Below are positions 4,651 to 57,424 of a DNA stretch of 64,000 nucleotides, piece by piece; position 1 is the first letter of the stretch; each line of letters starts with the position of its first letter. The notes beneath the pieces were generated by a model. That model did no database searches, had not been told where the DNA came from, and worked only from the letters and a program-made list of their open reading frames with translations. The position numbers and the translations under genes are program-made. Source of the stretch: Xanthostigma xanthostigma (lineage: Eukaryota; Arthropoda; Insecta; Raphidioptera; Raphidiidae); contig OY754475.1 of NCBI GenBank assembly GCA_963575645.1, positions 8,990,001 to 9,054,000 on the forward strand, given 5' to 3'.

Positions 4651-4944
4651 ATGTGTCATTTACCAGTTTAGAAAACTCAATCAGTATTAAAGAGAAGGTC
4701 TAAAATGTTTTTAAAAATAATAATAATAATAAAATACACAAGTTTATGCCTACACTAAGAAATTGTTTGAAGCAAACACATATTTATATGTACCTATTGA
4801 CGGAGAGATCTAATACGTAAAATAGTGAATATGACAGATGCCAGGTGATGTTTTAATTCGATACGAATAAAAATTACATAAGTAATGATTGATAGTGAGT
4901 ATTTGCCATATTCACCAATATTTAATGTTAGGAAACAGTGCAAT

Positions 4945-5297
4945 AGGTATACCGGGTTCGAATCCCGGCCAGTGGCTGGGACTTTTTCCAGCTGCCTCTC
5001 GCCGAAAAACTGTAATTCCTGTACCAGCCATCTTGTTTAGGTTTTCCATGGTTTCCCTCAATTATTCCAGATAAATATCGAGATGGTTTCTTATTCAAAC
5101 TCCCACGCTCATTTGCCCACATTATCGTAATGTTCTAAAATTCCTTCATTCGCGCATTGCTATTAATTAGTTGAAGTTGAAAAAATGTAGAAAATAACGG
5201 GAAATGTGATAGATGGAAAATAGTAATGGTGGGAATGGCGTTTGTTATGACATAAAGTCGAGAAACGGACGTTAAACACATTATTATTATTGTTAAT
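4945..5297 (+). mobile_element. tRNA-derived SINE, copy S1
   Basis: The head retains B-box GGGTTCGAATCCCGGCC. The body matches the other SINE copies in the window (TTTCCATGGTTTCCCTCAAT, GATAAATATCGAGATGGT, GTCGAGAAACGGACGTTAAA) and it ends in (ATT)n. Tail and polymerase III boxes mark it as a SINE mobilised by a LINE. Open frames across it are repeat-derived. Confidence 0.8.
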
Positions 5298-54037: not shown

Positions 54038-54374
54038 ACATTTATTTAAATGCCTTAATTTCTCTTTTGGAAACGATGTACACGGAACTACATTAATGCT
54101 TGACCAATTTTTTTTTTAACTTCTTGCGACCTTCTTTCCGGTATTAACGACCCATAGTTTGGAAACCGTTTGTCCTTTCAGACACTATAGACGCACACTT
54201 TATTTGAAAGCGTGCCTTTGGAAAGTGTTCACTGTTTATAGTGCAAGGATTCCTGAAAGTATCTCTTACAAACGAATAAGCTTTACATTGGAATTCCCAA
54301 TTGCACAAGTCGGGGGTTTTTAAGCACTTCATACATGTGTTGTATTAGTTCAATCAACGAAGACCAAAAACTGC
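54038..54374. other. Unassigned spacer
   Basis: Nothing recognised. Confidence 0.35.
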
Positions 54375-54608
54375 CAAATAGGGGAAATAATTCGTGTAAA
54401 AGCGATTTTTGGCATAGTTGTAGGGGAGGGTGTCTGAAGCAACATACTCAAAGTACTGATGGATGGGGGTGGAGCTAAGGGGTGGGGGGTGGCGTTAAGG
54501 TCCCCTTTTAAAGTTTTTCTTATTTATCTCGTAAACGGTGGCTCAAAACAAAGCAATCTACATAAAATTCTCTACAAAAAAGGTTCTGTACACTTTTTCG
54601 CTGGGATT
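54375..54608 (+). repeat. Left terminal inverted repeat
   Basis: Pairs with 56,797-57,047. Contains G-rich GGATGGGGGTGGAGCTAAGG..GGGTGGGGGGTGGCG. Confidence 0.85.
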
Positions 54609-54734
54609 AATATTTAACGAGATATCAAAGAAGAAAAGTTAATTATGCTCAATTCTCGCGTTTTTACGTATTGGTTCAAACTGCTGGCGCACACGGCACG
54701 TTTCTGTAGCGTCGTCGGGTGCAAGGGACTGGCA

Positions 54735-55419
54735 CCAGAGGTGGTACAAACTGTTATTTTTTAATAACAGTTCCGTTCCGTTCCTGTTCCGCTTACGGAA
54801 CAGTTCCAAAAACCTGTTACTTTTTAACAGTTCCAACGTTGGAACCTTGACATTCTCGGAATAGCTAGTAACATGCAACTTATAAAAATTTCAAATTATG
54901 AAATGTGTATGATTTGTATTTTTTCGTGAATTAATTCTATTATTCAAGTTTAATAATTTAAGGTACCTAATTATTAAAAACATACTTTTACAGAATGTAA
55001 GTAACAGTTGTTCTGCAGAATGCTTATACTATGACAAAATCAAATAATATTATTTCACCACAGTTCAATATTATTCGCGTATGTAATATAAAATTAATAA
55101 GTCGTCCAGTTTTGTCTGAAACTTTGCGACGCATGTTAATGTGATGGTGTGATACTAAAATCGACTTTACGTACAATGTACGCTAGGCGTAGGTGAAGAG
55201 CATAACTGTTGCAGTTTGCAAAGTAGGTACAATAATAATTGACAACGGGAACGGAGAATGTTTATTTTATGCAGAAGAACGCCCGTTATGTTATTCGGAA
55301 CAGTCGAAGCATTGGAACAGCCCGGAACAGGTATTTTATTATACTGACAACTGTTCCAATCTGTTCCTCGTTCGAAACCGTTCCAAAATAACTGTTCCTA
55401 GTATTTTGTATCATCTCTC
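54735..55419. mobile_element. hAT-like MITE nested in the long-TIR transposon
   Basis: Ends CAGAGGTGGTACAAA and GAGAGATGATACAAA (read inward) with 8-bp ACTGGCAC / ACTGGCGG flanks (six of eight). Many GGAACAGTTCC-type inverted motifs lie near both ends. Frames running through it, including the start of the 123-codon frame at 55,193, are not part of the host transposon gene. Confidence 0.65.
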
Positions 55420-55481
55420 ACTGGCGGCAAGGTCACCGCCAACCAATCACGACGCACACGTGGAGTATGAAATGGAACCCG

Positions 55482-56700
55482 TCCTCCAACGTTTCTACGA
55501 TTTGCCATCAAAACATTACCTACGTCCAGAAACATTACGGTCCAAACTGTATGGTGGTTTTTGATGGTTACAGTGATGTCAACAGCACTAACGAGCAGAG
55601 CAGAAACGACGAGGTCTGACTAAAACGTCGGTTGATATTAACTGTAACGAAAATACGATCATCACTGTTAAACAGGAGCATTTCCTCGACAACGAAAAAA
55701 ATAAAACGAGGCTGATTCAGTTCCTCACCGAGAAAATGACAGCAGCAGGGATTGAAACAACTGTTGCAACAGGAGATGCTGATGGTACTATTGTCAGATG
55801 CGGGTTGGATAAGGCTGCCATTCATCCAACTGTTGTAATAGTTGGGGAAAATGTCGACTTGATAGTCCTCCTCATGGGATTGGCTCCACCAAATAACGTG
55901 TTCTTTATGAAACCAGGGCGTGGAAAGGTGGAAACCAAATTGTTTTCAGTGCGACAACTTCAACAGTTTCCACTTGCCAAGACAATTCTCCTTCTCCACA
56001 GCTTCTCCGGATGCGACACCACCACTGCAATCCATGGAAAGAGCAAAGTGGGAATTGCTAAGCTGTTCACGGATAAACCAGACCTGACCCAAAAAATCTC
56101 AGACATTTTTAATGAGCCTTCAACATCACCTGAGAGTATTGAACAGGCCGGCGAGAAACTGTTTCTGGCCATTTACAAAGCGTCTAACCAGGAACAAAAT
56201 CTAAATAAATTACGATACTCAGCTTTTTTGAGAGCATCAATGAATCCGAAATCAGATCAGGCCACTCTTCGTCCTACCAGAGAAGCTTCGAAGCAGCACT
56301 CGTTGAGAGTGTACCTACAGGTATCATTAACCACAGAAGTTGTCAAATATATATTAAATATATATTTGAGCTAAATACTTACGTTGATCTTATTACATCT
56401 TTTACAGATCCAACAATGGCTCAGCAAGCCCCTACCACCTACTCAATGGGGCTGGGCCAGAAGAGACGATGGCATTAAAGTCGGTGACAACAAACGATCC
56501 TGTGGCACTTGACTCCATACTCAACAGCATATTTTGCCGATGTAGAACTGGGTGTGGGGTGCGATTCGGCTGCCGGAAAGCAGGAATTGCCCGCTCCAGT
56601 GTTTGCGGGGTATGCTCCAGCTCATGCACTAACGGAGCCCCAATCGAAAACACCGTCGACGATGATGTTGATGATGATATTATGTTAGATTTAGAAGATA
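55482..56700 (+). pseudogene. FDGY/SGCDTT-family protein with C-terminal CXC-like domain
   Basis: Reading segments in order: ICHQNITYVQKHYGPN then MVVFDGYSDVNSTN (to about 55,594). After a frameshift come AEQKRRGLTKTS, TVKQEHFLDNEKNKTRLIQF, VIVGENVDLIVLLMGL, NNVFFMKPGRGK, LLLHSFSGCDTTTAIHGKSK and QHSLRVYLQ (to 56,320). An 87-bp GT..AG intron (56,321-56,407) precedes IQQWLSKPLPPTQWGWARRD. After a second shift near 56,484 comes FCRCRTGCGVRFGCRKAG, then a cysteine-rich end with CGVC. The acidic positions in VVFDGY, DADGT, ENVDLIVLL and SGCDTT recall PIN/FEN-type nucleases (metal-binding aspartates); this is inference. The Cys block is like a tesmin/CXC domain with two Cys positions replaced (RFGC, IARSS). 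Similar proteins occur in many insect and cnidarian gene sets as uncharacterised. Here the gene lies entirely inside the transposon's inverted repeats, so it may be its transposase or a cargo gene. At least two frameshifts make this copy inactive. Confidence 0.75.
56321..56407 (+). other. Spliceosomal intron in transposon gene
   Basis: Donor CAG|GTATCA, pyrimidine-rich acceptor CATCTTTTACAG|ATC, 87 bp, phase 0. Removing it joins RVYLQ to IQQWLSKPLPP, the order expected for the family. Confidence 0.75.
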
Positions 56701-56796
56701 ATTGGAATTTTTTTAATACATGCCATACCTACTCAAAGAACTGTATCTTTATTTTATTATTGACCATCTTCTTTCCTTCACGGGTCATTCAATATT

Positions 56797-57047
56797 GATC
56801 CCACCGAAAAAGTGTACAGGACCTTTTTTGTAGAGAATTTTATGTAGATTGCTTGAGTAAAAAAATTTTTTTGTTATGAGCCACCGTTTACGAGATATAT
56901 AAGAAAAACTTCAAAAGGGGACCTTAACGCCACCCCCCACCCCTTAGCTCCACCCCCATCCATCAGTACTTTGAGTATGTTGCTTCAGACACCATCCCCT
57001 ACAACTATGCCAAAAATCGCTTTTACACGAATTATTTCCCCTATTTT
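56797..57047 (-). repeat. Right terminal inverted repeat
   Basis: Inverse of 54,375-54,608 with about 17 inserted bases near 56,856-56,878. The last frame of the gene runs into it. Confidence 0.85.
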
Positions 57048-57424
57048 TGCTTCTTTGAGTGAGCTATATATCGCACTGAAGTATAAGAGTATAGACTGTA
57101 GATGGCACACACGCCTTTTCAATTTAAAGGCCAGTCGAATAGCAAGGGAGGAGTCCCACTTAGTATCAACGACTGAAGGCTCTTACGCTGTTGAGCCAAC
57201 AGACTTTGTTACTAAGAGACACGGAATACTGTCGGCTCCATTCAACAATGGATTTATATCCGCTCTAGCTCGCTTTTAGTTCAACCCAACCTTGTCTTAA
57301 TTTAGTTCTTACCTAGCCTGTTTAACGATATTATTCAACGATCGATAATAACTGATACAATATTACCATTCCAACTCGATAATTGGGGAACCGTACTAAT
57401 TTAGGTCAAAATTCAATTGTATTA
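57048..57424. other. Unassigned spacer
   Basis: A 102-codon frame (56,971-57,279) overlaps the TIR and has no family resemblance. Confidence 0.35.

Follow-up and report, generated by a model that had tools for sequence, protein, structure and literature searches.

The window, a 64,000-nucleotide stretch of Xanthostigma xanthostigma contig OY754475.1, contains one of dozens of near-identical copies of a defective cut-and-paste transposon. Comparison of its flanks with those of 32 other places set the element at 54346–57066 (2,721 bp, starting TAGTTCA), with the same 3-bp target-site duplication, TAT, at both outer ends (54343–54345 and 57067–57069). Repeat search and flank comparison delimited a left terminal inverted repeat (TIR) on the forward strand (54346–54620, first letters TAGTTCAATCAACGAAG) and a right one on the reverse strand (56785–57066), whose reverse complement starts with TAGCTCACTCAAAGAAG. 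The long inverted repeats described in the first-pass annotation are borne out by two pairs of arms, 54376–54557/56865–57046 at 97% identity and 54551–54620/56785–56854 at 93%. The limits it gave, 54375 and 57047, were rejected and moved outward, because the copies share sequence past both and the inverted repeats extend to 54346 and 57066. To the left of the earlier limit, the 2.7-kb copies have TAGTTCAATCAACGAAGACC in common, and to the right they have GCTTCTTTGAGTG[A/G]GCTA; in both directions the sequence diverges just outside. Small variants occur in these shared outer ends, and one copy (L014) is rearranged. The TGC proposed as a target duplication falls inside the left terminus and was discarded in favour of TAT. 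Near-identical copies of the same structure recur genome-wide, so the structure in the window is not due to chance.

The element encloses a decayed gene, the remnant of a protein of ~1,450 residues, and the motifs, intron and Cys-rich end attributed to it were all located as claimed. Exon 1 (55465–56320, forward strand) is a remnant of the putative C-terminal nuclease domain, homologous to residues ~1061–1347 of the protein of L041, a relative described below. It carries the motifs VVFDGY (55554–55571), DLIVLL (55856–55873) and SGCDTT (56006–56023). The predicted 87-bp GT..AG intron (56321–56407, forward strand) falls in phase 0 after CAG, within RVYLQ/IQQWL. Exon 2 (56408–56705, forward strand, right end approximate) contains a WGW motif and the Cys-rich tail, which begins at 56532 and is out of frame. 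Compared with L041, the window copy lacks 1 bp after FDGY and 2 bp ahead of the Cys-rich part. The opening ~1,060 residues of the L041 protein have no counterpart in the element.

The same region was compared with the coding part of L041 in 30 rows, namely the window and 29 of the 32 fetched places; L034, L035 and L037 were left out, as the seed did not find them. The intron was present in 28 of the 30 rows (86 bp in L040), and the L014 and L017 rows leave it unresolved. The 2-bp deletion was shared by 26 of the 28 rows covering that position, with L009 and L033 as exceptions. The 1-bp deletion occurred in six rows (window, L010, L013, L019, L028 and L032), and an in-frame stop was present in nine. 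In most 2.7-kb copies, the tail is therefore out of frame.

Between the left repeat and the gene lies a nested foldback element of ~680 bp (54736–55419), with ends CAGAGGTGGTACAAA and GAGAGATGATACAAA, which is carried by the amplified 2.7-kb family. Its flanks show an imperfect 8-bp match (ACTGGCAC/ACTGGCGG). Together with the look of its ends, this match is the ground on which we take the nested element to be hAT-like. The best 40 of 154 candidates for it were all at least 97% identical over about 680 bp.

Searching the genome with the TIR gave the best 40 of 135 candidates, and 32 places were then fetched. Twenty-five of these, the reference L010 itself counted, matched all 2,692 bp of L010 as one unbroken alignment of no less than 97% identity. 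In the other seven, insertions, deletions or rearrangement split the match into pieces. When the window frame was used as a protein query, 150 matches were listed (the best 147 of 362 candidates), among which ~67 distinct places, L041 included, were at least 85% identical to the frame, as counted by hand from the table. The remaining matches, below 85% identity, belonged to other families. L014 (C2:64860497-64864185) has two mutually inverted halves, both matching the left part of the reference, and contains the nested element twice, in inverted orientation.

A pattern scan for both element ends could read them in 29 of the 32 places; L017, L029 and L035 were missed because one end is absent or altered. 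An exact 3-bp target duplication was found at 26 of these 29 places and a 4-bp duplication at two, L012 (TATA) and L018 (TAGA), while L026 had none. The search for empty sites called for in the first-pass annotation was performed on L028, which is inserted into a C9 tandem satellite. The flanks of this insertion, joined minus one copy of the duplication, gave a 240-nt query for which 42 places were listed (best 40 of 1,048 candidates). Forty of the 42 were at least 99% identical over all 240 bases, two of them at 100%, and represent uninserted monomers. This clean empty site therefore confirms the termini and the 3-bp duplication of the L028 copy. The satellite forms a large tandem array at C9 26.37-26.90 Mb, which hosts one insertion, L028. 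Judged by eye, the flanks of L026, on C4, resemble the same satellite.

Intact long frames were detected in three relatives in the same genome, L041, L042 and L043. L041 (C5) has an intact 1,444-aa frame inside the same TIRs as the 2.7-kb family (265 bp at 99%, plus the outer ends), with ~5.6 kb between its two outer ends. It is 96.5% identical to the 2.7-kb family in 863 bp of shared coding sequence; at the left end the figure is 91%, over 358 bp. L041 may be immobile, because its right end stops 2 bp short and the target duplication is missing. Its first 1,000 residues, used as a query, gave 48 matches (best 46 of 181 candidates); no second close copy was among the matches listed, the others being 32–58% identical. 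L042 contains an intact 1,457-aa frame from GTG (TIR 449 bp, duplication GAG, ~7.1 kb). L043 contains one of 1,520 aa from GTG, or 1,512 from the ATG used (TIR ~1,060 bp, duplication CAT, ~6.8 kb). Each of these two proteins is 39% identical to that of L041. In L044 the long frame is interrupted by one stop (TIR 813 bp, duplication TTT), and L046 (TAA) and L049 (ATA) have TIRs and the C-terminal gene part only, with breaks. TIRs thus flank the gene at six of the nine gene loci fetched, and five of these six have 3-bp duplications. At L045, L047 and L048, no flanking TIR was found within the stretch fetched. The ends of the relatives conform to TAG[T/C]nCA, the damaged right tip of L041 excepted. 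The long relatives encode a single protein of ~1,450–1,510 residues, with a middle D..D..E region, the FDGY/SGCDTT domain and the Cys-rich tail. Prokaryotic or viral relatives were searched for and not found.

Six loci (L041, L042, L043, L044, L046 and L049) continue through the intron site without an intron. L048 has a 96-bp GT..AG insert (4874–4969) at the same codon as the window intron. GT..AG inserts at one codon in two families of this gene, absent from six other loci, amount to repeated loss or gain. The simplest reading of these sequences is an old intron with several losses. If the intron was lost repeatedly, the intronless L041 would be a sister of the 2.7-kb family and not its direct source.

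Gene-less derivatives are usual for TIR transposons. The first-pass annotation had counted TIR copies with other content against its own proposal; such copies were found in part, in related families, as derivatives beside gene-bearing copies. The 331-bp TIR of L049 is 100% identical at eight or more places, query included, among the best 40 of 62 candidates, which points to very recent movement of the L049 family. Nineteen TIR pairs were counted in this family, nine enclosing a gene piece at 89% or more and ten without a scored gene match. One TIR pair of the family spans 9 kb (C4:32009255-32018319). A search with the L042 TIR returned the best 40 of 659 candidate places. L066 (C1:20531946-20532960) is a ~0.9-kb foldback of two L042-family TIR arms, with the duplication TAG identified by eye.

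These derivatives, and the lack of a transposase adjoining the remnant in the window, would fit a nuclease gene that is host or foreign cargo in a transposon moved by another, standard transposase. However, L041–L044, at ~40% identity, keep the nuclease at the C-terminus of a ~1,450-residue frame, downstream of the conserved D..D..E, and each is bounded by TIRs of its own, whose ends are similar. A lasting fusion across such divergence is not expected of cargo, and we regard this explanation as highly improbable. Capture of a host gene was rejected on the same fused frame, kept in four relatives inside their own TIRs. The gene had initially been seen as either the enzyme of the transposon or a captured accessory. 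That it belongs to the transposon is upheld, but capture is unlikely because a single long frame in L041–L044 has the nuclease as its C-terminal part. The nuclease so appears to be an integral part of the putative transposase, not cargo.

The identity of the FDGY domain was examined by profile comparison. In hhalign, a seven-member FDGY/SGCDTT profile aligned to eleven bacterial and phage nucleases (E. coli PolA N-terminal domain, YgdG and phage 5'-3' exonucleases) with probability 89.5, E 2e-6 and score 49.6. The control consisted of 100 column shuffles, not of an unrelated real profile, and gave a mean score of 13.5 and a maximum of 19.4. The alignment pairs VIDGG with VDGS of PolA (the first Asp motif), FDGY with FDAK, DAD with EAD and EDVDL with GDKDM, and it ends before SGCDTT. 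The paired acids are the catalytic acids of the FEN/XPG/Pol I 5'-nuclease family. Matched by eye, SGCDTT presumably stands at the place of the last Asp motif of that family. Counting the rows that bear a letter at each position, D1094, D1165, D1167, D1190, D1192 and D1246 are invariant in 8/8 rows, and the first Asp, D1054, is present in 7/7 rows of nuclease alignment A2. This comparison places the FDGY domain, as a predicted nuclease, in the FEN/XPG/Pol I 5'-nuclease superfamily, in agreement with the XPG/PIN-like nuclease suggested at the outset. Between the first Asp and EDVD, the catalytic acids match those of these 5' nucleases in order and register; what sets the present domain apart is its fusion with a Cys-rich tail and a region resembling a transposase.

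Scans of the seven members gave no match to Pfam XPG_I or XPG_N, and a genome search with the curated XPG_I profile retrieved five other places only, none of the present loci. When members were scanned singly, the nuclease region showed weak and mixed matches: NYN_YacP in three of the seven (best E 0.015), RestrictionSfiI in one (E 0.0039), PIN_4 in one (E 0.21) and, in addition, two unrelated families. A short comparison with host XPG-family exon fragments was dropped, as it was out of register and equalled or beaten by two of 200 shuffles; the full-length bacterial and phage FEN profile replaced it. The structure model of the window frame, built from a single sequence, had a mean pLDDT of 37.8, too low to be informative. 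The tail contains nine Cys that are invariant in 7/7 rows. The Cys-rich end of the supposed CXC protein is therefore real, but the curated Tesmin/TSO1-type CXC profile found no match in L041, L042 or L043 at E up to 1.

The middle region, deleted from the window copy, contains three invariant acidic residues in an alignment of nine proteins or pieces: D433 (6/6 rows, in DNADFN..T.DG), D597 (7/7, in FDQPLY) and E831 (9/9, in D..IEQ). We infer from this pattern a candidate DDD/E transposase core. Three of the four members of the middle-region alignment have a weak match to DUF6589 (Pfam PF20231), a family to which the library assigns no function. The best E-value was 2.4e-6; L041 had no match, and the match in L043 (E 1.3e-5, residues 533–779, including FDQPLY) was below the curated cut-off. 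A genome search with DUF6589 gave two places over the cut-off when in-frame neighbours are counted together. By name, DUF6589 was not found in the literature searched. The earlier statement that no part resembles a DDE-type transposase holds for the window copy, but the full-length relatives keep the invariant D...D...E and the weak DUF6589 match. Its more specific version stands: hAT, mariner, piggyBac and Harbinger were all absent from Pfam matches of two window frames and L041–L043 at E up to 1. Searches of solved structures with L041, alignment A1 and nuclease alignment A2 gave no PDB match, and middle-region alignment A3 gave one weak, meaningless match (E 1.3).

The nuclease acids are conserved as strictly as the D..D..E set, and sequence searches link the middle region to no solved structure, as might be expected if the FEN-type nuclease did the cutting and the middle region had only a structural or DNA-binding role, with no DDE chemistry. 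The present elements, however, combine long TIRs with short, fixed duplications of 3–4 bp, as elements moved by DDE strand transfer typically do. FEN-type nucleases are hydrolases and are not known to carry out strand transfer. Academ, moreover, is counted among the DDD/E superfamilies in PMC9587614. We consider cutting by the nuclease instead of DDE chemistry very unlikely. The same holds for the related idea that a metal-dependent FEN-type 5' nuclease cuts with the DUF6589-like region as its partner, and not ordinary DDE chemistry alone.

The Academ nuclease is of the XPG type. PMC10045372 names the AcademX lineage, with Kojima 2020 as source, and gives duplications of 3 or 4 bp for AcademX and of 9 or 10 bp for AcademH, tied to nuclease and helicase. 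Both AcademX features are present here: the duplication (3 bp at 26/29 and 4 bp at 2/29 places, TAT in the window) and, by profile comparison and conserved acids, the nuclease. Compared by description, the likenesses to AcademX are the 3–4 bp duplications, the encoded nuclease and, as a candidate, a DDD/E-type transposase region. L041 is near the mean length of curated Academ consensus elements (5,565 bp in PMC10294476), whereas L042 and L043 are longer. The window copy differs in its internal deletion and in the nested element it carries. PMC9587614 describes accessory nucleases, varied in fold, in several Kolobok lineages. The Kolobok lineages E, D, P and H pair a DDD/E transposase with an accessory nuclease or helicase, which resembles the putative arrangement of the present family, but they differ in nuclease fold and superfamily. 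By duplications and nuclease, Academ fits best among the known groups as described in those sources, which agrees with the Academ link first proposed. The present family was not found in the literature on such transposons, so far as its text was available (including PMC10799480 and PMC9783078); we do not claim that it is absent from print.

The likeness to Academ draws on descriptions, and accessory nucleases of varied folds are present in several Kolobok lineages (PMC9587614). The family might thus form a separate superfamily, AcademX-like only by convergence in nuclease fusion and 3–4 bp duplication. Against this, the nuclease, the DDD/E candidate region, the 3–4 bp duplications and the ~5.6-kb L041 all fit AcademX as described in these papers, and we hold convergence to be unlikely.

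The window element is most probably (probability about 0.8) a non-autonomous, internally deleted Academ-like (AcademX-type) transposon, mobilised in trans. In this Academ-like transposon, the D..D..E region would serve as the catalytic core, of RNase H type (DDD/E), cleaving the ends and joining them to the target with a 3–4 bp stagger. The nuclease would trim 5' flaps or cut the non-transferred strand, and the Cys-rich tail would bind DNA. A deletion of ~3.7 kb that took out the D..D..E region would have produced the 2.7-kb derivative, which carries the nested hAT-like element and may have spread because both ends were kept. We infer mobilisation in trans because such derivatives spread without the whole gene.

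An unannotated protein type, marked by FDGY and SGCDTT, is now linked to a putative transposase, in which the predicted nuclease would be integral across families of ~40% identity. The results also suggest that Pfam DUF6589 may mark the transposase core of such elements. Material for testing what the fused nuclease does is present in the genome itself: short natural derivatives of 2.7 kb and ~0.9 kb, coding copies that are still intact, and clean empty sites.
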